Positions 23,772-48,324 of a stretch of 64,000 nucleotides of DNA are shown here, piece by piece. Source of the DNA: Aureimonas sp. AU4 (GTDB lineage Bacteria; Pseudomonadota; Alphaproteobacteria; Rhizobiales; Rhizobiaceae); NCBI RefSeq assembly GCF_001463765.1, contig NZ_BBWK01000043.1:1-64000 (forward strand). Direction: 5' to 3'. The position numbers were made by a program, and so were the translations under genes. Position 1 is the stretch's first letter. Each line of letters starts with the position of its first letter. The notes under the pieces are model-generated. The model searched no databases and was not told where the DNA came from. It saw only the letters and a program-made list of their open reading frames with translations.

Positions 23772-23863
23772 GCCATCAGGGGGTCGCGCGGACGCAACGC
23801 GCCGTGCCGGGCCCCGCTCTGCCTCGCAAGACCCGCAGACAATCCGCCTGGAAAGGTCCGCCC

Positions 23864-25912
23864 ATGTCCCAAGTCGAGATCGCCGCGCCCAAGGCCCGCA
23901 GAAAGATGCAAGGGGCCGGCGCGAACGAGGGCTCCATCGCGCGCATTCGCGAACTGGCCCAGGCCCGCGTCGCGATCGAGGGCGTCGAGCCCATGATCGA
24001 CGCCGGGCGCTTCGCCGTGAAGCGCCTGGCGGGCGAGACGCTGACGGTCTCGGCCGACATCTTCACCGACGGGCACGAGATCATCGACGCCGCGCTCATC
24101 ACGCGAGGGGCCGGCGACACGGACTGGCGCGAGACGCCCTTCACCTTCATCGCGAACGACCGCTGGGCGGCGAGCGTCACCTTCGATCGGCCCGGCGCCT
24201 ACCGCTACTCCATCATCGCCTGGCGCGACGTCTTCGCGACCTGGGCGAGCGACACCAGGAAGAAGCGGGTCGCCGGCGTCGACATCGCGCTGGAGCTGCG
24301 CGAGGGCCAGATCCTCCTGGAGAAGGCAGCCGCGTCCGGCCGCGGCACGAAGGACGACGCCAAGCGCCTCAAGGCGCTGCGCGCGCGCATCGACAAGCTG
24401 GCCGCCAAGGGGGACGGCGAGGCGCTCTACGAGGCGATGACGGAAGGCGACACCGCGCTCCTCCTGCGCGAGGTGGGCGTGCGCGAGAACCTGTCGCGCT
24501 TCGAGATCGACGTGCCGGTCTGGGTGGACCGCGAGGCCGCCGGCTTCTCGGCCTGGTACGAGTTGATGCCGCGCTCGCAGTCGGGCGATGTGAACCGCCA
24601 CGGCACGTTCGACGACGTCATCAAGCGCCTGCCCGACATCGAGGAGATGGGCTTCGACGTCCTCTACTTCCCGCCGATCCACCCGATCGGCAAGACCAAC
24701 CGCAAGGGGAAGAACAACAGCGTCACCGCGCAGGAGGGCGAGCCGGGCTCCCCTTACGCGATCGGATCGGCGGAGGGCGGCCACAAGGACCTCCATCCCG
24801 AGCTCGGCTCGTTTGCCGACTTCCAGCGGCTCGTGACGCGCGCGGCCGACCACGGGCTCGAGATCGCCATCGACTTCGCGATCCAGTGCTCGCCCGACCA
24901 CCCCTGGATCAAGGAGCATCCGGACTGGTTCGACTGGCGGCCCGACGGCTCGATCAAATACGCCGAGAACCCGCCCAAGAAGTACCAGGACATCGTCAAC
25001 GTCGACTTCTACGCCGAAGGGGCGATCCCCTCGCTCTGGCTGGAGCTGCGCGACGTCGTCCTGTTCTGGCTCGACAAGGGCGTGCGCATCTTCCGCGTCG
25101 ACAACCCGCACACCAAGCCCTTCCCGTTCTGGGAGTGGATGATCGCCGAGGTGCGCGAGCGCGACCCCGGCGCCGTGTTCCTGGCCGAGGCCTTCACGCG
25201 GCCCAAGCTCATGAAGCGCCTTGCCAAGGTCGGCTACAACCAGAGCTACTCGTACTTCACGTGGCGGAACCGCAAGTGGGAGCTGCGCGAGTACCTGACC
25301 GAGCTGACGACGGCCGAGTGCGCCGAGTTCATGCGGCCGAACTTCTTCGTCAACACGCCCGACATCAACCCGCTCTTCCTTCAGACGAGCGGGCGGCCGG
25401 GCTTCCAGCTGCGCTTGGCGCTGGCCGCGACGCTCGCCGGCAACTACGGCGTCTATTCCGGCTTCGAGCTGTGCGAGAGCGAACCGCTCGCGCCCGGCAA
25501 GGAGGAGTATCTCAACTCCGAGAAGTACGAGATCCGCGCCTTCGACTGGCGCGCGCCCGGCAACATCCGCGAGGACATCCGCTTCTTCAACCGCATCCGC
25601 CGCTCGGAGCCGGCGCTGCGCGACTTCCGTAATCTCGAGTTCTACAACTTCTGGAACGACGAGATCCTCTACTACGGTCGCCGCACGCCGGACCTCTCCT
25701 CCTTCCTGCTGGTGATGGTGTCGCTCGATCCGCAGCATCCGCAGGGCGGGCATTTCGAGGTGCCGCTCTGGGAGTTCGACCTGCCCGACAACGGCTCGGT
25801 CAAGGTCGAGGACCTCGTGACCGGCCAGCAGTTCGTCTGGAGCGGCAAGGTCCAGCATTGGTGGTTCCGGCCCGACGAGCGGCCCTACGCGGTGTTCCGC
25901 ATCTCGGTCTGA
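23864..25912 (+). CDS. glgE: Alpha-1,4-glucan:maltose-1-phosphate maltosyltransferase (GlgE)
   Basis: GH13_3 enzyme that extends alpha-1,4-glucan with maltosyl units from maltose-1-phosphate, in the cytoplasm. 682 residues. The N-terminal domain (to about 200) has DIFTDGHEIIDAALITRG; the barrel carries YFPPIHPIGKTNRKGKNNS, a GlgE hallmark, nucleophile D413 in IFRVDNPHTKP and acid/base E442 in FLAEAFTRP, 29 residues apart as in characterised GlgE, then NTPDINP. The start is ATG 23864 with a GGAAAGG ribosome site. It opens the operon glgE, treS-maltokinase, glgB, preceded by an EcfG-type promoter. It is the committed step of the trehalose-to-glucan route. Confidence 0.96.
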   Translation: MSQVEIAAPKARRKMQGAGANEGSIARIRELAQARVAIEGVEPMIDAGRFAVKRLAGETLTVSADIFTDGHEIIDAALITRGAGDTDWRETPFTFIANDRWAASVTFDRPGAYRYSIIAWRDVFATWASDTRKKRVAGVDIALELREGQILLEKAAASGRGTKDDAKRLKALRARIDKLAAKGDGEALYEAMTEGDTALLLREVGVRENLSRFEIDVPVWVDREAAGFSAWYELMPRSQSGDVNRHGTFDDVIKRLPDIEEMGFDVLYFPPIHPIGKTNRKGKNNSVTAQEGEPGSPYAIGSAEGGHKDLHPELGSFADFQRLVTRAADHGLEIAIDFAIQCSPDHPWIKEHPDWFDWRPDGSIKYAENPPKKYQDIVNVDFYAEGAIPSLWLELRDVVLFWLDKGVRIFRVDNPHTKPFPFWEWMIAEVRERDPGAVFLAEAFTRPKLMKRLAKVGYNQSYSYFTWRNRKWELREYLTELTTAECAEFMRPNFFVNTPDINPLFLQTSGRPGFQLRLALAATLAGNYGVYSGFELCESEPLAPGKEEYLNSEKYEIRAFDWRAPGNIREDIRFFNRIRRSEPALRDFRNLEFYNFWNDEILYYGRRTPDLSSFLLVMVSLDPQHPQGGHFEVPLWEFDLPDNGSVKVEDLVTGQQFVWSGKVQHWWFRPDERPYAVFRISV

Positions 25913-25968
25913 CCCCGGCCCGGCCGACCCCATCCGGTTTTCTCGATTCCTCTTCTCGCAGTCGCCCG

Positions 25969-29285
<3,317 letters not shown>

Positions 29286-29289
<4 letters not shown>

Positions 29290-31508
29290 GCGAGACCCGC
29301 GTTCCCGCGCCCATCGAACACGGCCTGCACGGCGACGAGGCGCGCGCGCTCGCGGCCGGCCGGCACGAGAACCCGTTTTCCGTGCTCGGCCGCCACCGCA
29401 ACGCGCAGGGCTGGGTGGTGCGCGCCTACCGGCCGGGCGCCGAGGCGGCCGAGCTCGTGGACGAGCGCGGCCGCTCGCTCGGCCGCATGGAGGCGGGCGA
29501 GGTGCCCGGCCTCTTCACCGGCACGCTCCCCCACGACGCGGGCGCCTATCGCTTCCTGTTTCGCCATGGCGGCGACAGCTGGCAGGAGGAGGACACCTAC
29601 CGCTTCGGCACGGTGATCTCCGACTTCGACGCCTACCTCATGGCGGAGGGAACGCACTACCGGCTCTACGAAAAGTTCGGCGCCCATCCCGCGATCATGG
29701 ACGGGGTGGAGGGCGTCAGCTTCGCGGTCTGGGCGCCCGATGCCCGCCGCGTCTCGGTGGTCGGCAACTTCAACTCGTGGGACGGGCGGCGCCACGTCTG
29801 CCGCAAGCGTGTCGAGGCCGGCGTCTTCGAGATCTTTATCCCGGGTCTGAAGCGCGGCGAGGTCTACAAGTACGAGATCATCGGCGCCCATGGCGAGATC
29901 CTGCCCCTGAAGGCCGATCCCGTGGGCTTCCGGCAGGAGCTCGCGCCCTCCACCGCCTCGATCGTCGACGGCCTCGTCCAGCACGAGTGGAAGGATGCCG
30001 CCTTCCGGGCCAAGCCGTCCGACTGGCAGGACGCCTCCAAGCCGGTCTCGATCTACGAGGTGCACCTCGGCTCCTGGCGGCGCGGCGACGGCGACACCTT
30101 CCTCGACTACGACACGCTGGCGCGCGAGCTCGTGCCTTATGTAAAGGAAATGGGCTTCACGCATGTCGAGTTCATGCCGGTCTCCGAGCACCCGTTCTAC
30201 GGCTCCTGGGGCTACCAGCCGATCGGCCTCTTCGCGCCCACCGCCCGCTTCGGCGATCCGGCCGGCTTCGCGCGCCTCGTCGACGCGCTGCATCAGGCCG
30301 ATATCGGCGTCCTCCTCGACTGGGTGCCCGGCCACTTCCCGACCGACGTCCACGGGCTCGGCCGCTTCGACGGCACCGCGCTCTACGAGCATGCCGACCC
30401 CCGGCGCGGCTTCCACAAGGACTGGAACACGCTGATCTACGACTACGGGCGGACCGAGGTGAAGAACTTCCTCGTCGCCAATGGCCTCTACTGGCTCGAC
30501 CAGTTCCACGTCGACGGACTGCGCGTCGATGCGGTGGCCTCGATGCTCTACCTCGACTACTCGCGGAACCACGGCGAGTGGGAGCCCAACATCTACGGCG
30601 GGCGCGAGAATCTCGAGGCCATGGCCTTCCTGAAGGAGACCAACGAGAAGGTCGGCGGCCTCTTCCCGAACGCCACGACCCACGCCGAGGAATCGACCTC
30701 CTTCCCGAACGTGTCGCGCCCGACCTACGCGGGCGGCCTCGGCTTCCACTTCAAGTGGAACATGGGCTGGATGCACGACACGCTGCACTTCATGCAGGAG
30801 GACCCGATCAACCGGAAGTACCACATGCACCACATGACCTTCGGCATGGTGTATGCGTACTCGGAGAACTTCGTCCTGCCGCTCTCCCACGACGAGGTCG
30901 TCTACGGAAAGGGCTCGATCCTCGGCAAGATGCCGGGCGACTGGTGGCAGAAGTTCGCGAACCTGCGCGCCTACTACGGCTTCATGTGGACCCACCCGGG
31001 CAAGAAGCTCCTGTTCATGGGCGGCGAGTTCGGCCAGTCGGAAGAGTGGAACCACGACCAGTCGCTCGACTGGCATCTTCTCCAGTATCGCGAGCATTCC
31101 GGCGTCCAGCGCCTCGTGCGCGACCTCAACACCCTTTATCGCGGGGTGCCGGCGCTCCACGAGAACGACTGCGACCCGAACGGCTTCGAATGGGTCGACA
31201 CGTCGAACGTCGAGCAGTCGGTCCTGGCCTATCTGCGCAAGGATCGGAACGGCGGCACGGCGCTCGTGGTCTGCAACTTCACGCCCAACGTCCACCACGG
31301 CTACCGCATCGGCGTGCCGCACGGCGGCTTCTGGGCGGAGGCGATGAACACGGACGCCGAGATCTACGGCGGCTCCAACGTCGGCAACATGGGCGGCGCG
31401 CAGGCCGAGGAGGTCCACGCCAACGGCCGGCCCTTCTCGCTGTCCCTGTCGCTGCCCCCGCTCTCGACCATCGTTCTCGTGCCGGGCCAGGCGCCCTCGG
31501 CTGCCTAA
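29286..31508 (+). CDS. glgB: 1,4-alpha-glucan branching enzyme (GlgB)
   Basis: Adds alpha-1,6 branches to the glucan made by GlgE. 740 residues, the normal length for the long GlgB form with two N-terminal beta-sandwich domains ([20 protein letters not shown], then [20 protein letters not shown]). The GH13_9 barrel carries [17 protein letters not shown], nucleophile D415 in [16 protein letters not shown] and acid E468 in [12 protein letters not shown], 53 residues apart as in E. coli GlgB, then [14 protein letters not shown]. The usual glycogen synthase glgA and glgC are absent from the window, so branching is linked here to the GlgE route. The start overlaps the treS stop. Confidence 0.97.
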
Positions 31509-31520
31509 GGAGTGGCTGCG

Positions 31521-32468
31521 ATGCAGTCCCGACCGCTCGGCCGCACCGGCCTCTCCATCATGCCGCTCGTCTTCGGCGGCAACGTCTTCGGCTGGACGGC
31601 GGACGAGGCGACCTCGTTTCGCCTTCTCGATGCCTTCGTCGACCACGGCTTCAACGCCATCGACACGGCCGACGTCTATTCCGCCTGGGCGCCCGGCAAC
31701 AAGGGTGGCGAATCGGAGACGATCATCGGCCGCTGGCTGAAGCGCGACCCGGCCAAGCGCGATCGGGTCGTCGTCATCACCAAGGTCGGCTCGGACGTCG
31801 GCGAGGGAAAGACGCTGAAGGAAGAGTACATCCCGCGCGCGGCCGAGAGATCGCTGGCGCGACTCGGGATCGACCGTATCGACCTCTACCTTTCGCACTG
31901 GCCCGACGACACGACCCCTCATGAGGAGACGCTCGCCGCCTTCGCCAGGCTGAAGGACGCCGGAAAGATCGCGGCGATCGGCTGCTCGAACTTTTCGGCC
32001 GAGCAGCTGAAGGCGTCGCTGGACGCCGCGCGCGCCAACGGCCTGCCGCGCTACGACGTGCTGCAGCCCGAATACAACCTCGTCGCCCGCTCGAGCCTGG
32101 AAGGTCCGCTCCTCGACCTGTGCCGCGCCGAGGAGATCGGCGTCATCACCTATTTCAGCCTCGCCTCGGGCTTCCTGTCCGGCAAGTACCGGAGCCAGGC
32201 CGACCTCTCGAAGAGCCAGCGCGGCGGGGGGCTGTCGAAATATCTCGACGCCCGGGGCCTCCGTGTCCTCGACGCTCTCGACGAGGTGGCGGGGCGCCAC
32301 GGCGCGAAGCCGGCCGAGGTCGCGCTCGCCTGGATCATGCACAAGCCGGGCGTGACCGCCCCCATCGCCAGCGCGACCAGCGTCGAGCAACTGGAGAGCC
32401 TGGCGCGCGCGGCCGCGCTGGCGCTGTCGGGCGACGACATGCGCCGCCTCGACGAGGCGAGCGCCTGA
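31521..32468 (+). CDS. Aldo/keto reductase
   Basis: 315-residue NADPH-dependent oxidoreductase of the aldo/keto reductase superfamily. The catalytic tetrad is visible: D and Y in NAIDTADVYS, K in VVITKVGS, H in LYLSHWPDD. IGCSNFSAEQL, YNLVARSSLEG and TYFSLASGFLSGKY follow the family pattern. The start is ATG 31521, set by AAGGAG overlapping the glgB stop; an in-frame GTG at 31512 lies within that site. It appears co-transcribed with the glucan genes. Whether it reduces a sugar, such as a 3-keto sugar from the ThuB branch, or a general stress aldehyde cannot be read from sequence. Confidence 0.9.
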   Translation: MQSRPLGRTGLSIMPLVFGGNVFGWTADEATSFRLLDAFVDHGFNAIDTADVYSAWAPGNKGGESETIIGRWLKRDPAKRDRVVVITKVGSDVGEGKTLKEEYIPRAAERSLARLGIDRIDLYLSHWPDDTTPHEETLAAFARLKDAGKIAAIGCSNFSAEQLKASLDAARANGLPRYDVLQPEYNLVARSSLEGPLLDLCRAEEIGVITYFSLASGFLSGKYRSQADLSKSQRGGGLSKYLDARGLRVLDALDEVAGRHGAKPAEVALAWIMHKPGVTAPIASATSVEQLESLARAAALALSGDDMRRLDEASA

Positions 32469-32487
32469 GCGGGAAACAGGGGGCGCG

Positions 32488-33642
32488 TCAGGCCGCGAGC
32501 GGCACGGCGCGCTCGATCCGGTTCCGGCCCTCGCGCTTGGCGCGGTAGAGCGCGCGGTCGGCGGCCGCCAGAAGCGCGCCCAGACCCGTTGCGCTGTGCC
32601 GCTCGAACAGGGCGACGCCGACGCTGACCGTCGTGCGCACGGGAGCTGTGCCCGGCTTGTCGAGAACCGCCGCCTCGAGCGTGCGCGCCACGCGCCGGGC
32701 GACGGCTTCCGCCTCGCCCGCGTCGAGGCCCGGAAGGAGCGCCGCGAACTCCTCGCCGCCCAGGCGGGCGAGAACGTCGACGCCGCGCATCTCGCGCTGG
32801 GCGATGCGGCTGAAGAGCTGCAGCATCTCGTCACCCACGCCGTGGCCGTAGGTGTCGTTGATGCGCTTGAAATGGTCGAGGTCGAAGACGAGAAGGGCGC
32901 CCGGCTGGTCGCCCGAGACGAGCGCCTCGCCCTTGCCGAAGAAGGCGCGGCGGTTGTCGAGGCCGGTCAGGAAGTCGGTGCTGGAGGCGGCCTCGTGCCG
33001 GTTCTCGCGCTGCTCGCGCACCATGGCCAGAAGCGTCGCGGGGCCGGCGAAGGACCACAGGACGCCTTCGAACATGGTCACGGCCATGGTCGGCCCCCAG
33101 ATCGTGACCGCGTCGCTGCTGAACATCGTCACGCCCGCCCGCACGGTGAAGAAGCCGGCATGGACGGCCATGAGGATCGAGGCCAGGCGCTGGGCGCGCA
33201 GCGCCCCGTCCGACTCCCACCAGGACCGCGCCAGGATCGCGCAACCGATCCAGCAGATCGCGCCGGACGCGAGCGAGGTCGTGACGATCCGCTCGCTCAT
33301 CGCCTGGTACTGGCCGAACGCGACCCAGACGACGGTCGCGGCCATGAGGCCAGCCGTCAGGAACCGGGGCATGGCCCGTCCGAGGAAGCGGTACTGGCCG
33401 GTGATGACGGCTCCGTAACCCCAGGTCACGAGCACGTTCGACAAGCCGACGACGATCTCGTGCGGGACGTTCGGCACGATGCGCAGGATGCAGCCGGCGG
33501 CGATCATGAAATAGCCGGTCGCCCACCAGGCGAGCGGCGCGCGGTGGGTCTCGGTGGCGTGGCGCTCCCAAAGCGTCAGCGCCCCCGCGATCGTGGCCGT
33601 TCCCACGATCAGGTAGTAAAGGATCGGAACCTCGCCCGACAT
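32488..33642 (-). CDS. Membrane-anchored diguanylate cyclase with intact I-site
   Basis: 384-residue protein with about six or seven hydrophobic segments in residues 8-205 and a C-terminal GGDEF domain beginning STDFLTGLDNRRAFF. The catalytic motif is GGEEF at 295-299. The inhibitory site RGVD lies at 286-289, nine residues before GGEEF, so product inhibition should operate, unlike the cyclase at 5884-7098. It converges with the aldo/keto reductase (19-base gap) and lies 104 bases downstream of the transglutaminase gene on the same strand, so it may be the last gene of that leftward unit or have its own promoter. Confidence 0.9.
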   Translation of the reverse strand: MSGEVPILYYLIVGTATIAGALTLWERHATETHRAPLAWWATGYFMIAAGCILRIVPNVPHEIVVGLSNVLVTWGYGAVITGQYRFLGRAMPRFLTAGLMAATVVWVAFGQYQAMSERIVTTSLASGAICWIGCAILARSWWESDGALRAQRLASILMAVHAGFFTVRAGVTMFSSDAVTIWGPTMAVTMFEGVLWSFAGPATLLAMVREQRENRHEAASSTDFLTGLDNRRAFFGKGEALVSGDQPGALLVFDLDHFKRINDTYGHGVGDEMLQLFSRIAQREMRGVDVLARLGGEEFAALLPGLDAGEAEAVARRVARTLEAAVLDKPGTAPVRTTVSVGVALFERHSATGLGALLAAADRALYRAKREGRNRIERAVPLAA

Positions 33643-33746
33643 GAATCAGATCCCGCTTCGTCAGGCCCCCAGCATGGACGCGAAATGGAAAATGTTCCCT
33701 TTCGATCGGGAGGATGAGGATTCGTGGTGAACGCTTCCTTGCTCCT

Positions 33747-34643
33747 TCAGGCGGCGGCCGGTTCCTCGAGCGCCACCATGTCGACGCTGTGGCGCGTGCG
33801 CTGGGGGCCGGAGGTCATCAGGACGCCGTCGATCGGCGCGACGTCGGCATAGTCGCGCCCGACCGCGACGAGGACATGGTCCTCCAGCGCGAGGCAGGCG
33901 TTGGTCGGGTCGAAACCGATCCAGCCGGCCTCCTCGCCGAGCCAGACCTCGACCCACGCATGCATGGCGTCGGCGCCCGCCAGACGCGGCTTGCCGGGCG
34001 GGGGGAGGGTGCGCAGGAAGCCGCTGGCATAACGCACGGGTATGTCCAGCGCGCGCAGGCCCGCGATCAGGAGGTGGGCGAAGTCCTGGCATACCCCGGC
34101 ACGGCGCTCGAAGGTCTCCTCGACCCGGGTCGAGACGTTGGAAACGCCCGGCGCGAAGCGGAACTCCGTGCGGATGCGGCGACTCATGGCCAGAAGGGTC
34201 TCGCCCAGGGGGCGCGCGGCGTCGAGGTCCTCGCTCAAGTAGCGGCCGACGGCGGGCGAGGGCTCAACGAGACGACCCGCGCCCAGGAAATGAGCGGGCC
34301 CCTCGCCCTCGCTCTCGCGCGAGGCGCCCGCTGCCGCGCGCAAGGACGCGAGGGCCGGCGTCGCGCCGAGGCGGGGCGCCGGGCGGTCGACCGCGACCAC
34401 GAGCCGGGCGTCGACGGCGAGCGCGGCGTGCGGCTCGCGGATCAGGAGATGGTCGGTGGCGTTGCCGAAGAAGTCCGGCTCGGTCTCGATCTCGGCGGGG
34501 CGCGGCGCGATGTCGATGCGCGCGCTTTCTACCCTCTGGCCGGCATCCTCGCGCGGGGTGACGCGCAGGACATGGCGCGCGTCCTTGACCGTGCCGCGAT
34601 AGCCGTAGCCGATATGGAGGTGGATGCGGTAGCGCACCGTCAT
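33747..34643 (-). CDS. Transglutaminase-like cysteine peptidase family protein (small)
   Basis: 298-residue protein with an N-terminal beta-rich domain ([20 protein letters not shown]) and a C-terminal transglutaminase-like core. The full Cys-His-Asp triad is present: C185 in RRAGVCQDFAHLLI, H228 in DAMHAWVEVWL, D245 in WIGFDPTNAC. Such proteins occur next to alpha-E and circularly permuted ATP-grasp genes and are predicted to be amidases or peptidases of an amide-bond-forming system; no substrate is established. No signal peptide is visible, so it should be cytoplasmic. Its ATG overlaps the stop of the ATP-grasp/alpha-E gene, so the two are translationally coupled and probably made in fixed ratio. 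Confidence 0.9.
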   Translation of the reverse strand: MTVRYRIHLHIGYGYRGTVKDARHVLRVTPREDAGQRVESARIDIAPRPAEIETEPDFFGNATDHLLIREPHAALAVDARLVVAVDRPAPRLGATPALASLRAAAGASRESEGEGPAHFLGAGRLVEPSPAVGRYLSEDLDAARPLGETLLAMSRRIRTEFRFAPGVSNVSTRVEETFERRAGVCQDFAHLLIAGLRALDIPVRYASGFLRTLPPPGKPRLAGADAMHAWVEVWLGEEAGWIGFDPTNACLALEDHVLVAVGRDYADVAPIDGVLMTSGPQRTRHSVDMVALEEPAAA

Positions 34644-37009
34644 TCGGCGTCCCAGCGCTCCGTGGCGCCCTCCGGCTCGGCGGCGAAGAAGCGTTCGGTG
34701 AGAAGATCGGAGATGTCGGCAAGGTCGCGTGCGACGCGCCCGAGCCAGGCGGCGTTCACCTCGCCCGGCAGCGCGGTCTCGAGGCGGACCTTGAGGCGCG
34801 CGGCGCGGCGCGAGGGCGGATCGAGGCTCTCGCCCGGACGGTTTCCCGGCATCTGCGCCAGAAGCTCGCGCAGGGCCTCGACCTGGTAGGCGACAGAGCG
34901 GGGATTGAGCGGGTCGAGCGCCACGAGATCGAGGACGCTCGGCGCCGAGAGCTCGACCGAGAAGCGGCGCCGGTAGGTCATGCGGCTGTCGGCATAGTCG
35001 AGAAGGGCGTCGAGCACGCCCTCGTCCTCGACCGCCAGGAAGGCCGCGCCGATTTCGGCCGCCAGAAGCCCGCGCTCGAGGCGCCGGCCGCACTGGAGGA
35101 AGCGCCAGCCCGAGAGGCGCACCATGTTCTCGCCGACAAGGCCCGAGAAGCCGGCAAGGCGCGTCAGAAGGCGATCGGCAAGGACATCGTCGTCGCGCCC
35201 TCCCGGCCCTGCCACGGCCTCGTCGAGCACCTCCACGATCTCGTGCAGGACGCGCCAGCCGTCGGGCGAGAAGCGGTCGCGGATGCGCGAGGCGATGTCG
35301 TAGGCGCCGCGCGCGAGCTGCCGAAGGCCAAGGGCCGCGTCCTCGCCGGCCTGGGCGACGCCCGAGCGCACGAGAAGCGCGGCGCGCGTCTCGGCCAGCT
35401 TGCCGGACGGCGCGTCGGCGGCCAGGGCCGCGCGCCACAGGCGCACCGCCGCCTCCAGCCGTTCCACGGAACGGCCGAGCCAGAAGAGGTTGTCGGCGGC
35501 GCGCGAGGGGAGGGAGCCGGGCAGGCGGCGCTGGAAGCCGTCCGCGGGCGGCCCGAGCAGCGTGACGGGGCGCTCCTCTCCTTCCGCCGCGATCCAGACG
35601 TCGAGCGAGCGCCCGCCGGCCGCGATCGCCTCGACGTCGGAGCCGGCGCCGGGCGCCGCGCGCGCGAAGCCTCCCGGCATCACCTCCCAGCCCCCCGGCC
35701 CGCGCGCGAGGAAGACGCGCAGCGTCACGGCGCGCGGCACGAGGCGCCCGCCCTCCAGGACCGGCGTCGTGGAGGCGGCGGGAGCGCGCCGGGCGGCCAG
35801 CTCGCTCCAGCGCTCCCCGGCGGCTGCCTCGACCGCCGCCTCGGCCCGGCCCGGAAAGCCCTCGACCGTCCGCCAGCCCGCCTCGCGCGCCCGCTCTCGC
35901 GCGGCCGGCTCGCCCAGCCACAGCGTCTCGGGCGAGGCGAGCGCGAGGGGCTCGCCCAGAAGCGCCACCGCCATCGCCTCCTCGAAGGCGGCGAAGGCCG
36001 GCGTCTCGGCCAGCCCCGAGCCGAGCGCGTTGACGAGATGGAGGTTGCCCGCGCGAACGGCGCGCACCAGGCCCGGCGTTCCGAGGCGCGAGCGCGACTT
36101 CAGCTCCAGCGGATCGGTCCAGTCGGCGTCGAGGCGCCGCCAGAGCACCGAGACCGGGCGCAGCCCCTCGACGGTGCGCACCCGCGCCTCGTCGCCATGA
36201 ACGGCGAGATCCCCGCCTTCCAGAAGTTGGAGGCCGAGATAGCGGGCGAGATAGCTGTGTTCGAAATAGGTCTCGTTGGAGGGACCGGGCGTCAGGAGAC
36301 CGGGCCGCCCGCCCCCCTCCGGACGGCCGCCCAGCGCGTCCAGCGTCTCGCGGAAGCGGGTGAAGAAGCCGGCCAGGCGCCGCAGCCGATGCGCCTTCGC
36401 CAGATCGGGCAGGGCGCGCGCGGTGGCAACGCGGTTCTCCAGGGCGAAGCCGGCGCCGGACGGCGCCTGCGTCCGGTCGGCGACGGCCCACCACCTCCCG
36501 GCCGCGTCCCGGCGCAGGTCGATCGCGAGGAAGCCGAGGAGAGGCCGCCCGCCCGACGCCTGGTTCGCCAGAGGGCGCAGGAACTCGGGGTTCGCGCCGA
36601 CGAGCCGGCCGGGCAGGACGCCCTCGCGGATCAGGCGCCGCGCGCCGTAGAGGTCGGCCAGAAGCGCTTCCAGAAAGCCGGCGCGCGCCTTGAGGTCGCG
36701 CTCCAGCCCGCGCCATTCCTCGGGCGAAAGGATGAGAGGCGGAACCGCCAGCGGCCATTGCCGCTCGCCGCCCTCGCCGCCCGCCCGGTAGAAGACGCCG
36801 GCCTCGCGCAGGTATTGCGCGGCCGAGCCGAGGCGCCGCTCGCGCTCCTCGGCCGACAGGGCGCCCAGCGCCTCGATCAGCGCCCGGTAGTGCGGGCGCA
36901 CGCCCCCGCCATCGGCGCGCATCTCGTCATGCGTGCCGGGGGGCGGGACGTAGCCGTCCAGAAGCGGGCTTCCCGCCGCGGGCGTGCGGGCGAGGCGGTC
37001 AGAGCGCAA
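34640..37009 (-). CDS. Circularly permuted ATP-grasp / alpha-E domain fusion protein
   Basis: 789-residue fusion of two proteins usually encoded separately. Residues about 15-480 are a circularly permuted ATP-grasp amidoligase ([38 protein letters not shown] in two blocks, [54 protein letters not shown]). Residues about 500-780 are the helical alpha-E (DUF403) domain, starting [23 protein letters not shown]-grasp enzymes of this type are predicted to make peptide-like amide bonds. The start is TTG 37009, overlapping the end of the upstream giant gene by 11 bases; no ATG precedes the conserved N-terminus. It sits between two transglutaminase-like genes, the signature arrangement of this uncharacterised system. 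Confidence 0.9.
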
Positions 37010-40000
37010 GGGAGGCGGGCCGGCGCAGGTCCAGCGTCAGGGGAAAGTTCGGATCGGGCAGCTCGGGCGGCGGCGCGAAGCCGCCGGCCGTGTGGCCGAT
37101 CTCCTCGAAGCGGGCGAGGCGCCGCGCCTCGGCCTCGTAGCCGTTGACCGGGAACGTGTCGTAGGCCCGCCCGCCGGGATGGGCCGTGTGGTAGCGGCAG
37201 CCGCCGAGCGAGCGCCCGTTCCACAGGTCGTAAAGGTCGAAGGTGAGGGGGGCGTGGACGGGAATCGTCGGGTGGAGGCCGGAGGCCGGGGCCCAGGCCT
37301 TGAAGCGCACGCCGCCCACCGCCTCGCCGACCCGTCCGGTCGCGGTCAGCGGCACGGTGCGCCCGTTGCACGTGAGCCGATGGCGCGAGGGATCGAAGCC
37401 GTTGAGCTTGGCCTGGAGGCGCTCCACCGAGGAGTCGACGAAGCGCACCGTGCCGCCGATGGCGCCGGTCTCGCCCATGACGTGCCAGGGCTCCAGCGCC
37501 TGATTGAGTTCCAGCGAGACGCCGCCCTCGAGCGCGACGCGGCCGCAGAAGGGAAAGCGGAACTCGGCCTGCGCCTCGAACCATTCGGGCCGCAGCGGAT
37601 AGCCGGCCTCATCGAGCTCGGCGAGGACGTCGAGGAAGTCCGCCCAGACGAAGGCCGGCAGCATGAAGCGGTCGTGGAGCTGCGTGCCCCAGCGCGCGAG
37701 CCGCCCCGAGGCGGGTTCGCGCCAGAGCTTGGCGACGAGCGCACGGATGAGAAGCTGCTGGGCGAGGCTCATGCGCGCGTGCGGCGGCATCTCGAAGCCG
37801 CGGAACTCGACGAGGCCGAGCCGCCCGGTCGGTCCGTCCGGCGAGTAGAGCTTGTCGATGCAGATCTCGGAGCGGTGCGTGTTTCCGGTGACGTCGGCCA
37901 GAAGGTTGCGGAACAAGCGGTCCACCAGCCAGGGCGCGGGCGGCTCGCCCTCGCCGGGCGGCGGCACGTTCGCCATCGCGATCTCGAGCTCGTAGAGCGC
38001 GTCGTGGCGCGCCTCGTCGACGCGCGGCGCCTGGCTCGTCGGGCCGACGAAGAGGCCCGAGAAGAGGTAGCTCAGCGAGGGGTGGCGCTGCCAGGTGAGG
38101 ATCAGCGACTTCAGAAGGTCGGGCCGGCGCAGGAAGGGCGAGTCGGCGGGCGTCCGGCCGCCGAGCACGACGTGGTTGCCGCCGCCGGTTCCCGCGTGCC
38201 GCCCGTCCACCATGAACTTGTCGGTGCCGAGCCGCGAGTGGCGCGCGTCCTCGTAGACGCCGGTGGTGATCGCGACCGCCTCGTCCCAGCTGTGCGCGGG
38301 ATGGACGTTGACCTCGACGACGCCGGGATCGGGCGCGACGCGGATGACGTCGAGGCGCGGGTCGAAGGGCGGCGCGTAGCCCTCGATGCGAAGGGGCAGG
38401 CGATGCTCGGCAGCGGCCGCCTCCACCGCCGCCAGAAGCTCCAGATAGTCCTCGACCCGCTCCACCGGCGGCATGAAGACGTGAAGCACCCCGTCGCGCG
38501 GCTCGACCGCGAGCGCGGTGCGCACATGGCCCGCGATCTCGGTGTCGGAGGCGGTGACGGGCGCCTGCCAGCGCCCGGCGTCGGCCGTGTCGATGCGCGG
38601 CTGCGTCTGTCCCAGAGCGGCGCGGGGCGGCAGGGGCGGGAAGCTTTGCTGCGGGTCGGCGGGGTGGGTGTAGGGGTAGAGCGCGGGCGGCAGGTGCGGC
38701 AGCGAGGAGAGCGGCAGGCGATAGCCGAGCGCGCTGTCGCCGGGCACGAGGAAGAGGTGGCCGCGCCGCGTCCGCCAGCGCTCCGACAGCCAGCGCCGGC
38801 CATCCGCCTGCCAGGGCTGCACCGGCAAGACCGCACCGACCGGCCGGCCGAGTCCCCGGTCGAAGACGCGCGCGAGGCGCTGGCGCTCCTCGGGGTCTTC
38901 CAGCTTGGAATCGGCGGGCGAGACGTTGACCGGGAGCTTGGCCTCGCGCGCCACGAAGTAGGTCGGGTCCTCGAAGGCGGGCAGGGCGTTGGCGGGATCG
39001 AGCCCGAGGCGCGCGGCGACGCTCTCCAGGATGTGCTGAGCGGCGTCGACGGTCGCGGACGGCGCGTCTTCGGCCGGCGCCTCGCCGGCGACCAGCGCGG
39101 GGTCGCGCCAGACCGGCTCGCCGTCGCGCCGCCAGTAGATCGAGTAGGTCCAGCGCGGCAGCGTCTCGCCGGGATACCACTTGCCCTGGCCGTGGTGGAG
39201 GAAGCCGCCCGGCGCGAAGCGCTGCTGCAGCCGGCGCAGGAGCGTGTCGGCGAGCCCGCGCTTGGCGGGGCCCGTCGCGTCGGCGTTCCACTCGGGTGCC
39301 TCGAAGTCGTCGACCGAGACGAAGGTCGGCTCGCCGCCCATGGTGAGGCGCACGTCCATGCGCTGGAGGTCGGCGTCCACCTTTCGACCCATCGCGTCGA
39401 GCGCCTGCCAGCTCTCGTCCGAGAAGGGCTTGGTGACGCGCGGCTCCTCGCGCAGGCGCTGGACCTCCATGGCGAAGTCGAAGGTCGTCTCGGCCGGCTC
39501 GACGCCGCCCGCGATCGGCGCGGCCGAGCGGTAGTGCGGGGTGGAGGCGAGCGGCACGTGGCTCTCGCCGGTCAGAAGGCCCGAGGTCGGGTCGAGCCCG
39601 ATCCAGCCCGCGCCCGGCAGGAAGGCTTCCGCCCAGGCGTGAAGGTCGCAGAAGTCGTGGCTCGTGCCGGCCGGCCCGTCGAGGGCCACCACGTCGGGTT
39701 TGAGCTGGATCAGGTAGCCGGAGGTGAAGCGCGCCGCGATGCCGAGATGGCGCAGCGCCTGCACGAGGAGCCAGGTGGAGTCGCGGCACGAGCCCGAACG
39801 CTTTTCCAGCGTCTCCTCGGGCGTCTGGACGCCGGGCTCCATGCGGATGAGATAGCCGATCTCGCTCGCCACGCGCCGGTTGAGATCGATCAGGAAGTCG
39901 ACGCTGCGGCGCGGGGTCCGGTCGACGCCCTCGAGAAACCGCTGAAGACGCGGCCCGGCCATGTCATGGGCGAGATAGGGCGCCAGATCCGCGCCGAGCT

Positions 40001-40325
40001 CGGCGTCGTAGCCGAAGGGATAGGTCTCGGCCGCGTCCTCCACGAAGAAGTCGAACGGGTTGTAGACCGTCATGTCGGCGAGAAGGTCGACCTCGATGCG
40101 CAGCTCGCGCACCGGCTCGGGAAAGACGAGCCGCGCCAGCCAGTTGCCGAACGGGTCCTGCTGCCAGTTCAGGAAGTGCCCGGCGGGTTCGACACGGAGG
40201 CTGTAGGCGGGCGTGCGCGTTCGCGAATGGGGCGCGGGGCGCAGGCGCACCGTCTGCGGCCCGAGCCGCACCGGGCGGTCGTAGCGATAATGCGTCAGGT
40301 GGCGGAGGGCGGCGAGAACCGGCAT
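36999..40325 (-). CDS. Large transglutaminase / DUF2126 protein
   Basis: 1108-residue protein. The N-terminal 290 residues are a transglutaminase-like module ([21 protein letters not shown]180 in [18 protein letters not shown]229 in [13 protein letters not shown]245 in WIGLDPTSG), with an intact triad. The remaining 800 residues are the DUF2126 region ([84 protein letters not shown]), which resembles glutamine-synthetase-like ligase modules in published analyses of this system. First gene of the leftward unit; the start ATG 40325 gives [16 protein letters not shown]. Predicted to act with the ATP-grasp/alpha-E and small transglutaminase proteins on an unknown peptide or amide substrate. Confidence 0.9.
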
Positions 40326-40462
40326 GGAATCCGTCGGCTGAGGGCACGGAGGGGCTGAGACCGGACCATAGCCTCTCCCGCGCCGCACACAACCGTCGCA
40401 GAGGCGAAGAATGCCGCCGAAACGGGCACCGGGTCCCGATCGGGCGAAGCCGCGTTGTGTCG

Positions 40463-40487
40463 GGAACCCCGGCCCGCTCCCGCAGTT
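40463..40487 (+). promoter_or_regulatory. Possible EcfG-type promoter for the zinc-ribbon peptidase gene
   Basis: GGAAC (40463-40467), then 16 bases, then AGTT (40484-40487) differs from GGAAC-N16/17-CGTT by one base. It lies 48 bases before the start at 40536, in the 210-base gap between the divergent peptidase and transglutaminase genes. One mismatch makes it weaker than the site at 23732. Confidence 0.35.
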
Positions 40488-40535
40488 AGCGGGTGGATCT
40501 CCCGTTTTTCCGCGCTGCACCCGAGGGTGTCCGAC

Positions 40536-41654
40536 ATGAAGCTCTTTTCCTGCCCGGCCTGCGACCAGGTCGTGTTCTTCGACAACATCCGCTGCGAGCG
40601 CTGCGGCCATGCGCTCGGCTACGAGCCGCGTTCCAACCGCATGCTGGCGCTGGAGGCGGACGGCGACGCCTTCGTCTCGATCGAGCGCGGCGGCCGGCGC
40701 GCGGAGCGCTGGCGCTACTGCGACAACCACCGCTACGGTGTGTGCAACTGGCTAATTCCGGCCGACAGCCCCGACCTTCTGTGCCTTGCCGACCGGCACA
40801 ACCTCATGGTGCCCGACCTCTCCGACCCCGCCAACCAAGCGCTCTGGGGAAAGATGGAGGCCGCCAAGCATCGCATGTTCTACACGCTCCTGCGGCTCAA
40901 GCTGCCGCTCTGGACGCGCGCCGAGCATCCCGAGGGCCTCGGCTTCAAGTTCCTGGCCGACGACCCGGCGGCCGGCATCAAGGTGATGACCGGCCACGAC
41001 GAGGGCATCGTCACCGTGGCGCTGGCCGAGGCCGACGACGTGGAGCGCGAAACGCGGCGCAACGCCATGGGCGAGCCCTACCGCACGCTGCTCGGCCATT
41101 TCCGGCACGAGGTCGGCCACTGGTACTGGGACATGCTGGTGCGCGACGGCGGGGCGCTGGAGGCATGCCGCGCCCTCTTCGGCGACGAGCGGGTCGACTA
41201 CGGCCAGGCGCTCCAGGCGCATTACGCCAACGGCCCCAAGTCCGGCTGGCAGGAGCAGTACGTCTCATCCTATGCGGCCTCCCACCCTTGGGAGGATTTT
41301 GCGGAAACCTGGGCGCACTACCTCCATATCGTCGACACGCTGGAGGTCGGCGGCTCCTACGGCATGACGATCCACCCGCGCCTTGACCGCGACGGCATCC
41401 TCACCACCGATCTCGACTTCAAGGTCTACGACGAGGCGACCACGATCGAGGAGATCGCGGACGCCTGGCTCGCGCTCAGCCAGGCGCTGAACTCGATGAA
41501 CCGGGCCATGGGGCTGAGCGACCTCTACCCGTTCGTCCTGTCGCGCACCGTGATCGGCAAGCTCGGCTTCATCCACGATCTCGTGCACGGGCGCGTCGGG
41601 CAGGCCGCCGCGCCGGCGGGTGCCGCGCCCGCCCGGGGGACCATGGCCGCCTGA
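40536..41654 (+). CDS. Zinc-ribbon putative metallopeptidase
   Basis: 372-residue protein of the putative zinc-binding peptidase family that accompanies alpha-E/ATP-grasp/transglutaminase genes. The N-terminal zinc ribbon has CPAC (C6, C9) and CERC (C20, C23). The core contains [14 protein letters not shown], an HExxH motif (H191, E192, H195), and downstream acidic residues in [17 protein letters not shown] that may supply the third zinc ligand. No signal peptide is visible, so it probably acts in the cytoplasm. It is divergent from the transglutaminase/DUF2126 gene, sharing a 210-base promoter region. Predicted role: release or trimming of a peptide modification; substrate unknown. Confidence 0.88.
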
Positions 41655-41760
41655 CGAAATCGTTTGGGCGCCCCTTAGGAAATAATCGCGGGCGCGCGCC
41701 CCTGCCGGCGGCGCGGCCCGCTCCAGTTAAGCCTCGCGCGGACGCCGGACGGGACGGCGC

Positions 41761-41776
41761 GCGGGAGGTCTCCCGC
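41761..41776. promoter_or_regulatory. Inverted repeat before treZ
   Basis: GCGGGAG-GT-CTCCCGC, a perfect 7-base inverted repeat with a 2-base centre, ends 39 bases before the treZ start inside the 161-base gap after the peptidase gene. It could be an operator or part of the leader. No matching EcfG promoter is seen in this gap, so the second trehalose block may be controlled differently from the first. Confidence 0.3.
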
Positions 41777-41815
41777 TTTGAATATCTGAGTATCGGACGG
41801 AAGGGGCGACGACCT

Positions 41816-43724
<1,909 letters not shown>

Positions 43725-43732
<8 letters not shown>

Positions 43733-45584
43733 GCGTCTGGAAGATCTGGCCGAAAGCCACGGCATCCAGATCCGCTACCGCTCCGAGATGGGCGAACCCA
43801 TGGCGATCGACGCCGAGGCGCAGGCCGCCCTCCTGCAGGCGCTGAGGGTCGATCCCGAGACCGGCGAGCGGGGACGCTTCGCGGAACTCCAGCATGCGCC
43901 GCGCCGGCGCTGCGCGCTGCCCGAGCGCGTGCGCGGCCAGCGCCGCTGGGGCGTGACGTGCCAGCTCTACGCCCTGCGCTCGCGCCGCTCGCTGGGGCTC
44001 GGCGACTTCGCCGATCTCGGCCAGCTCGCCGAGATCGCGGCGGCGGTCGGCGCCGACTTCGTGGGCGTCAACCCGATGCACGCGCTGTTTCTGGCCGATC
44101 CCGGCCGCTACAGCCCCTATTCGCCCTCGACGCGCCGCTTCATCAACCCGTTCTACGTCGCGGTGGACGCGGTGGAAGGGGGCCTTGATGCGACCGAGCG
44201 CCTGCGCGTGGCCGAGCCCGCCTTGTTCGAGGGGCTGGACGGCGAGCTCGTCGATTACGGCGCGGCCGGCATGCTGAAGCGCCGGCTTCTCCACGAGCTC
44301 TTCGAGGCTCAGAAGGACACCTTGCGCGACGACGCGACGCTGCGTGCGTTCCGCGACAAGGGCGGCCGGGCGCTTCAGGACTTCGCCCTGTTCGAGGCCC
44401 TGTCCGAATCCCGCGTGGCGGCTGGCGAGGGCGCGGGCTGGCACAACTGGCCGACGGAACTGCACGAGCGCTCAGGCGAGGCGGTGCGCCGCTTCGAGCG
44501 GGAAAACGCCGACGCCGTGCTCTTCCACCAGTGGCTCCAGTTCCTTGCCGACCGGCAGCTGTCGCAGGCGCAGGAGCGCGCGCTCCGCGCCGGCATGGCG
44601 GTGGGCCTTTATCTCGACTTCGCGGTGGGCGTCTCGCCGGACGGGGCCGAGACCTGGGCGGACCCGCAGGTGACGGTACGCGCCGCGCGCGTCGGCTCGC
44701 CGCCCGACATGTTCAACTCCGACGGCCAGGACTGGGGCCTCGCCCCGCTCTCGCCGGACGCGCTGGCCGAGCGGAACTACGCCCCGCTGGTCGGCGCCTA
44801 CGAGAGCCTGATGGACCATGCGGGCGCGATCCGCATCGACCACGCGATGGGCCTCGCCCGCCTCTGGTGGATCCCCGAGACCTCGCGCTCCGCGGGCGGC
44901 GGCTACGTGCGCTATCCGCTCGGCGACATGATCGACGCGCTCGCGGAGGTGTCGGAGCGGCGCGACTGCCTCGTGATCGGCGAGGATCTCGGCACCGTGC
45001 CGGAGGGCTTCCGCGAGACGGCGGAGGAGGCCGCGATCCTGTCCTACAAGGTGCTCTACTTCGAGCGCTGGGAGGACGGACTCTTCAAGGCGACGACGGA
45101 ATACCCGGAGCTGTCGCTCGCCTGCATCTCGACCCACGACCTCGCCGCGCTCGCCGGCTGGTGGCACGGCTCCGACATCCGCCTGCGCTCCGAGACCGGG
45201 CGGCAGAGCGAGGCGCACACCGCGCGCGACCTTGCCTCGCGCGACCGCGACCGCAAGGCGCTGCTCGGCGCGCTGCGCCACGAGAACCTTCTGTCGCCCC
45301 ATCTGGCGGGGCTGCTCGACAGCGGCGATCCGCTGCCCGAGCGCCTCGACGCCGAGCTTGCCATCGCGATCCATCGCTTCGCCGCGCGAACGCGCTCCAT
45401 GCTGTTTGCCGTCCAGGTCGAGGACATGATCCTGTCGGAGCGCCAGCCGAACCTGCCCGGCACGACCGACGAGTATCCCAACTGGCGCATCCGCTCCGAG
45501 GTCCTCCTCGAGGACCTGAGCGCGGACGAGCGCTTCCAGGCCATGGCTCGGGCGCTGCGCGACGAGCGCCCGCAACGCGCCTGA
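43725..45584 (+). CDS. malQ: 4-alpha-glucanotransferase (MalQ, amylomaltase)
   Basis: GH77 disproportionating enzyme, 619 residues, which transfers maltooligosyl chains between glucans and supplies chain lengths for TreY. Family features are WGVTCQLYALRSRRSLGLGD, PMHALFLADPGRYSPYSPST, YLDFAVGVSPDGAETW, SPPDMFNSDGQDWGLAPL, nucleophile D372 in AIRIDHAMGLARLWW, acid E420 in LVIGEDLGTVP, and CISTHDLAALAGWW. The ATG at 43725 overlaps the treZ end by 8 bases, implying coupling. The order treZ-malQ-treY interleaves it with the trehalose-forming pair. Confidence 0.95.
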
Positions 45585-45615: not shown

Positions 45616-48324
45616 ATGAGCCGTCCCCTCGTCGCGACCTACCGCCTCCAGTTCCGCGAGGGGACGGGCTTCGCGCAAGCAGAAGGCCTCGTGCCCTATC
45701 TCGGGCAGCTGGGAGCCAGCCACCTCTACGCCTCGCCGATCTTCGCCGCCTCGAAGGGTTCCACCCACGGCTACGACGTCGTCGACTACAACCGCTTCGA
45801 GCCGGACCTGGGCGGCGACGCGGGCTTCAACGCCATGAGCGACGCGCTGATCCGTGCCGACCTCGGCCTTGTCCTCGACTTCGTGCCCAACCACATGGGC
45901 GTCTCGCCGCGCAACCGCTGGTGGGAGGACGTCCTGCGCTGGGGCCGCGAGAGCTGGCACGCCGAGACGTTCGACATCTCCTGGGACGCCGAGAAGATCC
46001 TCATCCCCACGCTCGGCAAGCCCTATGGCGAGGCGCTGGAGAGCGGCGACCTCCAGATCGTCTACGACGAGGAGCGGCGCGAGATCCGCTTCTCGGCGTC
46101 GGGCTACACGCTGCCGGTCGACCCGCGCACGCTCAGCCACGTCTTCGCCTTCGTGGAGCACGAGGAGCGCGACCGGCTCGTGCGCCGCTTCTCCTCGGCC
46201 GTGCCGGCCGACGGGGAGGAACTGGGCGAGCGCTTCGCCGAGCATGTCGCCGACCCCGCCTTCCTCGAGGCCCTCAAGCGGGGCATCGGGGCGATCAACG
46301 CCGACAAGGCGGCGCTGCACGCCTTCCACGAGGCGCAGACCTGGCGCCTCGCCTGGTGGCGCCTGGCGCGCGAGAAGCTGTCCTACCGCCGCTTCTTCGA
46401 GATCGCCGACCTCATCGGCGTGCGCCAGGAGATGCGGCGCGTCTTCCGCGAGTCGCACCAGACCATCATGCGCCTGGCCCGTGAGCGGCGGCTCGACGGC
46501 ATCCGCATCGACCACGTGGACGGCGTCGCCGACCCCAAGGGCTACCTGCACGAGTTGGACCAGAACTTCCAGTCGCTGCGCCGCGACGTGTTCATCCATG
46601 TCGAGAAGATCCTGACCGGCCCCGAGCGGCTGCGCAAATCCTGGCGCATCGCGGGCACCACGGGCTACGAGTTCATCCAGGCTGTGGCCAACCTCTTCGT
46701 GTACGGCGCGCAGGAGGAGGCGATGACGCGCGCCTACCAAGACTTCGTCGGCGAGACCGAGGACCTGCGCGCCATGATCGCCGACCAGAAGCGCGCGATC
46801 TTCACCCACAACCTCGCCGGCGAGCTCTCGGTCCTGACGAGCGAGGCGATCAACGTCGCCGAACGCGGCCTCTCGACCCGCGACTTCGGGCGTGACGACC
46901 TGTCCCGCTCGATCGTCGAGGTCGCGACCGAGCTGCCGGTCTACCGCACCTATGTCGGCGTCGACGGCGTACCGGAAAAGGACGTCGAGGTGATCGACCA
47001 GGCGGTGGCGCGGGCCCAGGCCGGCCGCGAGGTCGAGGCGCAGGAGCCCGTCGCCTTCGTCGGCCGCCTCCTGAAGCTCGCCTTCGAGGACGGGCGCGAC
47101 GTGACCGGCGCGCTGAAGTTCACGCGCCGCTTCCAGCAGACCACCGGCGCGGTCATGGCGAAAGCCGTCGAGGACACGGTCTTCTACCGCTACAACCGCC
47201 TGATCGCCTTGAACGAGGTCGGCGGCGAGCCCGACCACTACGGCGCCGACACGAACGCCTTCCACGATCAGATGCAGATCCGGCTGAAGGACCAGCCCGA
47301 CGGGCTGATGGCGCTCTCCACCCACGACACCAAGCGCGGCGAGGACGCCCGCGCCCGCATCTACGCCCTGTCCGAGGCGCCCGAAGCCTGGAGCGAGATC
47401 GTCGAGCGCGCGGCGGAAGCCCTGAAGGCCTTCCGCGCCGATCTCGGCCACGGCCGCCTTTCGCCCGACCCCGCCACCGAATGGGGCTTCTACCAGTCGC
47501 TGCTCGGCGTCCTGCCGGCGGACTTCGACCCCGCCGACGAGGCGGCCGCCGCCGCGATCGCCCAGCGCCTGCAGGCCTTCGCCGAGAAGGCCGTGCGCGA
47601 GGCCAAGCGCTTCACCTCCTGGACCGCGCCCGCCGAGGACTACGAGGCGGCGCTGAAAAGCTTCGTCGAGGCCGCGCTCTCGCCCTCGAAGTCCGGCCCG
47701 TTCCTCGCCGCCTTCTGGCGCGAGGTGCAGCCCTTCGTGGTGGCGGGCGCGCTGAACTCGCTGTCGCAGACCCTGATCCGCCTTGCCGCTCCGGGCGTCC
47801 CCGACATCTACCAGGGCACGGAGTTCTACGACCTTTCCCTTGTCGACCCCGACAATCGGCGCAAGATCGACTTCGAGGCCCGCGCCCGCGCCATGGCGAA
47901 CGGCGAGGGGGTGCCGGAGGCGCTGGCGCACTGGCGCGACGGCGAGGTCAAGGCCAAGCTCACCGCCGCCGCCCTCAAGGCGCGCAGACAAGCGCCGAAC
48001 CTCTTCACGTCGGGCAAGTACCTGCCGCTCGAGGTCACCGGGCCGATGGCCGACCATGTGGTGGCCTTCGCGCGCACCGACGACGAGGGGCGCGTGGCGG
48101 TCGCGGTGGCCCCGCGCCTCGCCTACAAGCTCCTCGGGCACAAGGCCGAGCGGCCGATGCCCGATCCCGACCGCTGGGCCGACACGGCGGTTCGCCTGCC
48201 CTCGCACCTGGCCGGTGCGCGCTTCGAGAACGTGCTCACGCTCCGGGAGGTGCGCGGGGCGCCGGCGCTTCCCTTGCGCGACCTTCTCGCCGATCTGCCC
48301 GTCGCCCTTCTTCTCGCCGACTGA
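45616..48324 (+). CDS. treY: Maltooligosyl trehalose synthase (TreY)
   Basis: GH13_26 intramolecular transglucosylase that converts the reducing-end alpha-1,4 bond of a glucan to the alpha,alpha-1,1 bond of trehalose. 902 residues, within the family's long range. Hallmarks are [20 protein letters not shown] at the N-terminus, [36 protein letters not shown], nucleophile D299 in [17 protein letters not shown]330 in FIHVEKIL, the late [16 protein letters not shown] and [17 protein letters not shown]. It starts 31 bases after malQ and is followed 11 bases later by thuA. Confidence 0.96.

Follow-up and report, generated by a model that had tools for sequence, protein, structure and literature searches.

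An amidoligase operon back to back with a predicted stress-controlled peptidase and trehalose operon in Aureimonas

The Aureimonas locus and its closest described relatives

Gene sets encoding circularly permuted ATP-grasp (CP-ATP-grasp), alpha-E, transglutaminase (TG) and DUF2126 domains were reportedly predicted by Iyer et al. in 2009 to be amidoligase or peptide-synthesis systems, and the available excerpts of papers on the Anbu operon credit these authors. Here, we analyze such a set in a 64,000-nucleotide stretch of the Aureimonas sp. AU4 genome (contig NZ_BBWK01000043.1, positions 1 to 64,000; the window), where it stands back to back with a gene for a putative zinc peptidase, PepMx, and the trehalose genes treZ, malQ and treY. 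All four domain types, the organization as a same-strand operon and the conserved gene order are common to the window and the predicted amidoligase system; what the window adds is the divergent PepMx gene, which is predicted to open an EcfG-controlled trehalose operon. The original prediction, made from the nucleotide sequence, had recognized an amidoligase set without an established product; the set is confirmed, and no experimental product was found among the literature matches listed. The terms 'DUF2126' and 'COG4196' were found in no paper of the literature search.

The Anbu operon, which consists of genes for ATP-grasp, alpha-E, TG and Anbu proteins, shares the first three partners with the window, and a nitrogen response is known for the Pseudomonas putida Anbu set from the published passages available. 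In contrast to this operon, the window cluster is devoid of Anbu, ATP-grasp and alpha-E are fused and DUF2126 is present. Proteasome-family matches of the genome are confined to contigs C40 and C3, whereas the window lies on C43. A separate operon with ATP-grasp, alpha-E and Anbu genes is located on C3 (positions 28000-44000, locus L285), with no separate TG among the 8 neighbouring ORFs (open reading frames) scanned. For the rightward genes, the closest described system is the treY-malQ-treZ-glgX cluster of Sphingomonas melonis, in which, according to the excerpt of the study, trehalose genes are likewise controlled by the general stress sigma factor and the motif is the same, GGAAC-N17-20-GTT (PMC6599016); in the clade of the window, however, the promoter precedes a peptidase gene, which itself lies before treZ.

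We consider it fairly probable that the locus combines a nitrogen-type amide-ligase operon with a stress-induced PepMx-trehalose operon, PepMx being the peptidase arm. Two units would then diverge from one promoter region, the leftward amidoligase operon and the rightward PepMx-treZ-malQ-treY unit. The two ATP-dependent ligases, predicted to be glutamine synthetase-like and glutathione synthetase-like, would couple activated carboxylates to amines or amino acids and so form a product with peptide or amide linkages, and the two cysteine TG-type domains would transfer or hydrolyse such amide bonds. Related sets respond to nitrogen limitation, and the general-stress promoter ahead of PepMx would drive the second unit. 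PepMx would replace the Anbu of the classic operon; given this position and its putative EcfG control, turnover of the product would be induced together with the release of trehalose from glucan. It is unproven that the two units share a function. Gene calls are based on ORF analysis and GC content at third codon positions (GC3), followed by Pfam searches, and yield the following features:

36999-40325, reverse strand: TG-DUF2126, 1108 amino acids (aa); Pfam DUF2126 (1306 bits), Transglut_core and Bact_transglu_N; catalytic triad C180/H229/D245
34640-37009, reverse strand: CP-ATP-grasp and alpha-E fusion, 789 aa if translation begins at the first possible start codon, a TTG; Pfam CP_ATPgrasp_2 (345 bits) and Alpha-E (179.5 bits)
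33747-34643, reverse strand: small TG, 298 aa; assigned by Pfam; catalytic triad C185/H228/D245
40326-40535, no strand: divergent intergenic region common to the amidoligase operon and PepMx
40463-40487, forward strand: EcfG-type promoter, GGAAC-N18-TT (equal to GGAAC-N17-GTT), 73 bp before the PepMx ATG
40536-41654, forward strand: PepMx, 372 aa, Zn_ribbon_DZR_6 and Peptidase_Mx (341 bits) domains, HEVGH motif; start set by alignment
41816-43732, forward strand: TreZ, malto-oligosyltrehalose trehalohydrolase; TIGR02402, 665 bits
43461-45584, forward strand: MalQ, 4-alpha-glucanotransferase; TIGR00217, 382 bits; the frame overlaps TreZ and the true start is probably later
45616-48324, forward strand: TreY, malto-oligosyltrehalose synthase; TIGR02401, 928 bits

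The CP-ATP-grasp, alpha-E, TG and DUF2126 domains are thus encoded in one same-strand cluster. The leftward unit of a 1108-residue TG-DUF2126 protein, an ATP-grasp/alpha-E protein and a small TG, accompanied by a divergent zinc-ribbon HExxH gene, had been described in the original prediction and is borne out by the ORF, GC3 and Pfam analyses. An overlap of start and stop codons had been noted for the last two genes: the start codon of the small TG indeed sits in the ATGA of the ATP-grasp stop, and, in addition, the DUF2126 stop is overlapped by the TTG with which the ATP-grasp frame could begin, its true start not being proven. With these overlaps, the three genes look coupled as judged from their arrangement. 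The columns of the large TG triad are invariant across 55 aligned sequences. No NCBIfam family is assigned to any of the four core proteins. The genome carries one DUF2126 copy, whose nearest named relatives are found in Methylopila (74% identity) as well as Aurantimonas and Mangrovicella (72%), very near records possibly having been omitted from the search. A reading as a defence system was dropped; PADLOC had no match for any of five window proteins.

PepMx and its putative general-stress promoter

The alignment places the start of PepMx at the ATG at 40536 and not at the TTG at 40455. HEVGH, the HExxH of the Peptidase_Mx domain, comprises residues 191-195, and its H, E and H columns are invariant in 10/10 aligned sequences. 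The claim that the TG triads and HEVGH are intact holds. The zinc ribbon is not fully intact: the first two CxxC are present and the second CxxC region reads CxxD (window 40782-40793, residues 83-86). This second CxxC is altered in all 20 congener regions compared (L100-L119), reading CxAD in 13 and SxAS in 7, so that the apparent loss of zinc ligands is clade-specific, with HExxH retained in the window.

Occurrence was assessed in an order sample of 150 genomes and a phylum sample of 397 genomes, both including the genome of the window. In the phylum sample, PepMx matches, a few of them short or weak, are present in 84 genomes and DUF2126 in 129; both occur together in 66, compared to 27.3 expected (hypergeometric probability 5e-23, uncorrected for kinship). 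PepMx is encoded within 12 kb of DUF2126 in 19 genomes from 11 families, own genome included. The assignment of a peptidase to the set is thereby upheld, and PepMx emerges from these gene distributions as a recurrent, frequent but not obligate partner of DUF2126, which is new here.

An EcfG-type pattern is found upstream of PepMx in 40 of 78 distinct upstream regions, compared to 1.4 expected from shuffling, the rows not being independent by kinship. It is present in 20/21 regions from the own genus, 20/38 from other Alphaproteobacteria and 0/19 from outside the class; three of the 40 sites (L078, L208, L210) lie at least 135 bp out from PepMx and may be due to chance. The control regions gave 3/199 for DUF2126 upstreams (4.4 expected) and 1/23 for TreZ upstreams; EcfG control of the amidoligase operon itself was accordingly rejected, and a site ahead of TreZ itself was rejected in favour of the PepMx site. 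Across the window as a whole, GGAAC-N18-19-TT, a looser pattern, has 4 matches compared to 5.1 expected, i.e. no excess over chance, and the weight of the site therefore rests on its conservation. The genome has the corresponding regulators as far as can be predicted: NepR was identified with a hidden Markov model (HMM), adjoining ORFs were assigned as an extracytoplasmic function (ECF) sigma factor and PhyR by reading, not by HMM, and, in the NepR neighbourhood, a stretch of 3.1 kb has 4 EcfG motif matches at 3 positions, compared to 0.28 expected.

The gap between PepMx and TreZ measures -38 to 212 bp in 18 rows of the congener set, and no terminator-like site was found in this gap of the window. 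Because of the conserved EcfG-type site and the short gap, PepMx appears to open a trehalose operon under stress control, and we predict that it probably heads treZ-malQ-treY. The window site equals the published EcfG motif, and the S. melonis cluster is EcfG-dependent, although three of its genes are listed with low-scoring upstream motifs in the part of the study available (PMC6599016). An excerpt of a study on Bradyrhizobium states that the EcfG regulon includes trehalose genes and that the treZY pathway is dispensable for symbiosis (PMC8092242). The link to stress and storage suggested in the original prediction is thus borne out in part: an EcfG-type promoter exists, yet the genes it faces are PepMx and the trehalose genes and not those of the ligases.

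Distribution, regulation and competing explanations

DUF2126 is found in 66/150 genomes of the order sample. Of the 65 other DUF2126 loci in this sample, 60 were fetched together with flanks of up to about 8 kb, and ATP-grasp-alpha-E is near DUF2126 in 56/60 and the small TG in 55/60. Fusion-length ATP-grasp frames account for 55 of the 57 measured; of the remaining two, one is shorter and the other lies at the end of a contig. The DUF2126-type set is therefore already known, widespread and uncharacterised, and the ATP-grasp/alpha-E fusion, once taken as notable, is the norm. That the fused parts would act in one complex and that the enzymes may form a synthesis/editing cycle are suggestions of the original prediction.

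Published regulation of such sets in relatives concerns nitrogen, in the passages available, and not glucan storage, to which the ligases had been linked. In an ntrC mutant of Burkholderia cenocepacia, DUF404/407, DUF403 and two TG-like genes, one of them called 'large', change by -6.0 to -9.4 according to an excerpt (PMC5491218); the 'large' gene presumably corresponds to TG-DUF2126. For P. putida, PP2685-2687 of the Anbu-type set are reported to be upregulated under nitrogen limitation in the section available (PMC3325844), and PP_2685, PP_2688 and treY are tabulated together as genes that follow potential nitrogen-sensitive promoters (excerpt of PMC8050072). Sites resembling sigma54 promoters with up to two mismatches were found in 35/198 distinct DUF2126 upstream regions compared to 16.5 expected (uncorrected for kinship), 22 of the sites falling into the -100 to -51 bin (2.6 expected), and 11 regions have a site with at most one mismatch (1.9 expected). 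These putative sites in relatives agree with the published nitrogen regulation. The hvyA product of a Caulobacter NtrC paper is, we assume, a different protein from the TGs of the window. In the excerpt of that paper, the single 'transglutaminase' passage concerns hvyA, and the paper was discarded as support. In an association study of Sinorhizobium meliloti, the regulatory regions linked to competitive ability include, in the part available, that of a COG2308 (CP-ATP-grasp) gene (PMC8407117).

Amidoligase sets are widespread yet uncharacterised, and the general-stress promoter of PepMx together with the sigma54-like ligase promoters in several families would tell in which conditions and in which tractable bacteria a product could be hunted. 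The back-to-back position next to the PepMx-trehalose unit would allow a role of these enzymes in the physiology of nutrients and stress to be tested.

Several observations weigh against the favoured explanation. PepMx lies near DUF2126 in only 10/60 loci of the order sample, and glucan genes are found in 3/60 (two GlgP-GlgB, one MalQ). The EcfG-type site is missing from 18/38 alphaproteobacterial PepMx rows outside the genus, including all six of family f32. Upstream of the amidoligase operon of the window, there is neither an EcfG-type nor a sigma54-like site, the latter being ruled out at up to two mismatches within 300 bp, so that joint induction of the two units is unproven. The nitrogen evidence from P. 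putida concerns the Anbu-type and not the DUF2126-type set, and the Anbu-operon proteins tested in a published study showed, in its available part, no peptidase activity and formed no stable complex. A literature search on Peptidase_Mx found no report of PepMx activity. Finally, the glutamine synthetase matches of TG-DUF2126 described below have E values above 0.03, low TM-scores (template modelling scores) and no residue range, their placement on DUF2126 being assumed.

The position of the amidoligase set between two trehalose-glucan blocks was correctly described: a GlgE/TreS/GlgB block lies on one side and TreZ/MalQ/TreY on the other. Conservation of this linkage was compared in 21 species of the genus, including the own, with 20 congener regions centred on PepMx. 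TreZ is located directly beyond PepMx in 19 regions, MalQ is present in 19, TreY in 18, DUF2126 in 19, ATP-grasp-alpha-E in 18 and the small TG in 18; in the lone region without TreZ (L108), PepMx lies right at a contig end (G158:C10:36). GlgB is found on the far side in 9/20. The order TreY-MalQ-TreZ-PepMx followed by divergent TG-DUF2126 is common to Aurantimonas (L121), Mangrovicella (L122) and the genome G488 (L230). Beyond these relatives, a neighbourhood check had been proposed for a recurring glgE/treYZ linkage across the order; GlgE, TreS, TreZ and TreY are near DUF2126 in 0/60 of the other order loci, and glucan linkage as an order-wide feature was rejected. The linkage is thus not unique to this genome, uniqueness being what would have spoken against the prediction, yet it is not general either: by these comparisons, the trehalose linkage is clade-wide, with no example seen beyond the own genus and near genera, and a GlgP-GlgB linkage appears in other lineages. 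GlgP-GlgB lies downstream of the gene triad in 12/80 named loci, all of them from Rhizobium, Sinorhizobium, Ciceribacter, Metarhizobium, Martelella or unnamed Rhizobiales, and upstream in G107, G543 and G503, the last from another order. GlgB is within 15 kb of DUF2126 in 3/60 order genomes (G021, G107, G126) compared to about 0.3 expected by hand arithmetic (53 GlgB-like matches in 48/60 genomes of about 4.8 Mb each, uncorrected for kinship), an excess that is no more than suggestive. A TreS-like match beside DUF2126 in Henriciella (L164, 210/1106 residues) was discounted, since it probably represents a different gene of the amylase family. Matches to FAH, AKR, guaD and similar genes near DUF2126 were scattered.

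The restriction of the trehalose linkage to one clade speaks for the main rival. It holds that the amidoligase operon merely adjoins a stress-controlled trehalose operon in this clade, that PepMx is part of the general stress response and that there is no common product. The two units also differ in promoter type, and in G488 PepMx and DUF2126 are found with treZ, while alpha-E is encoded in an 814-aa, probably fused frame on another contig. We regard this explanation as possible rather than probable: linkage of PepMx to DUF2126 extends over 11 families, whereas treZ was seen beside them only in own-family kin; the PepMx-TreZ order is kept in 19/20 congener regions, Aurantimonas and Mangrovicella; and GlgP-GlgB linkage occurs, in differing arrangements, in Rhizobium kin, G543, G107 and G503.

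It might also be speculated that the ligases and TGs decorate proteins with amino acids or amines and take these off again, and that PepMx clips or degrades the tagged proteins under nitrogen or general stress. Tagging has been proposed for the related Anbu operon in published passages, and the presence of a peptidase partner and the stress and nitrogen regulation would fit. We nevertheless judge it unlikely, since relatives of the ATP-grasp fold are mostly small-molecule ligases and the Anbu-operon proteins, in the published part of the study mentioned, formed no stable complexes. To our knowledge, neither a tag carrier nor a tagged protein is known.

The predicted folds bear on a further alternative, namely that the ATP-grasp protein joins a peptide to a polyamine like glutathionylspermidine synthetase, with the TG domains acting as amidases. 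The AlphaFold model of ATP-grasp-alpha-E (mean predicted local distance difference test score, pLDDT, 89.7) matches 3n6x, annotated as glutathionylspermidine synthase, in Foldseek with E 4e-25, glutathione synthetases with E 5e-10 to 8e-7 and, more weakly, trypanothione and glutathionylspermidine synthetases with E 5e-4 to 1e-3. This is a match at the level of the fold, which does not fix the substrate, and no polyamine enzyme was present among the 10 neighbour-cluster representatives annotated; we consider formation of polyamine or glutathione-like conjugates still more doubtful than protein tagging. For alpha-E, no convincing relative was found by Foldseek or profile comparison. A weak Foldseek match to NasR (4akk, E 0.21, probability 0.66, placement on alpha-E assumed) had raised a nitrate-sensing NIT domain, which was ruled out by a profile comparison probability of 0.2%.

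The model of TG-DUF2126 (pLDDT 78.9, predicted template modelling score 0.71) has TG-like 3isr as its best PDB match (E 1e-13). The proposed structural check of DUF2126 against glutamine synthetase folds gave weak matches: among 50 rows listed, at least 12 are glutamine synthetases (E 0.03-0.1, with target-normalised TM-scores of at most 0.29), and three flagellar doublet entries match as well (E 0.015-0.08). A glutamine synthetase-like fold of DUF2126 is favoured by this model, not proven.

It is very unlikely, though tempting to imagine, that in nitrogen limitation the amidoligases store nitrogen in a peptide or polyamide, or modify glucan with peptides, and that PepMx, induced along with treZ-malQ-treY by the general stress sigma factor, degrades this material while glucan is converted into trehalose, in which case carbon and nitrogen reserves would be mobilised by a single stress-controlled operon.

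Neighbouring genes and variant loci

Towards the GlgE flank, the window contains three further features:

32488-33642, reverse strand: GGDEF diguanylate cyclase (Pfam GGDEF), an uncertain associate of the set that lies past the small TG in the same orientation
23756-31508, forward strand: flanking block of GlgE, TreS-maltokinase and GlgB
23732-23757, forward strand: another EcfG-type site, preceding the GlgE-TreS-GlgB block; 5/11 genus members looked at have a site

The interval 32488-41654, to which the amidoligase island had been assigned, thus begins with a GGDEF gene that had gone unmentioned. An aldo/keto reductase gene lies beyond the GGDEF gene, both between the GlgE block and the amidoligase operon. 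Matches to the GGDEF gene occur in 10/20 congener regions with 38-85% identity. In Mangrovicella, GGDEF lies directly beyond DUF2126, ATP-grasp-alpha-E and the small TG being absent there, and this genome has one alpha-E match only, in a 506-aa frame.

TG-DUF2126 stands without adjoining ATP-grasp-alpha-E at L122, L230, L042, L058, L086 and L269. In G488, G493 and three f27 genomes, alpha-E is encoded in a long, probably fused frame elsewhere in the genome. At G019:C1:562941-565401, DUF2126 is split across two frames, possibly by a frameshift or in a pseudogene. Genes for dipeptide-type ATP-binding cassette (ABC) transporters recur near the amidoligase set (L063, L126, L138, L141, L163, L166), which would suit the uptake of peptides.

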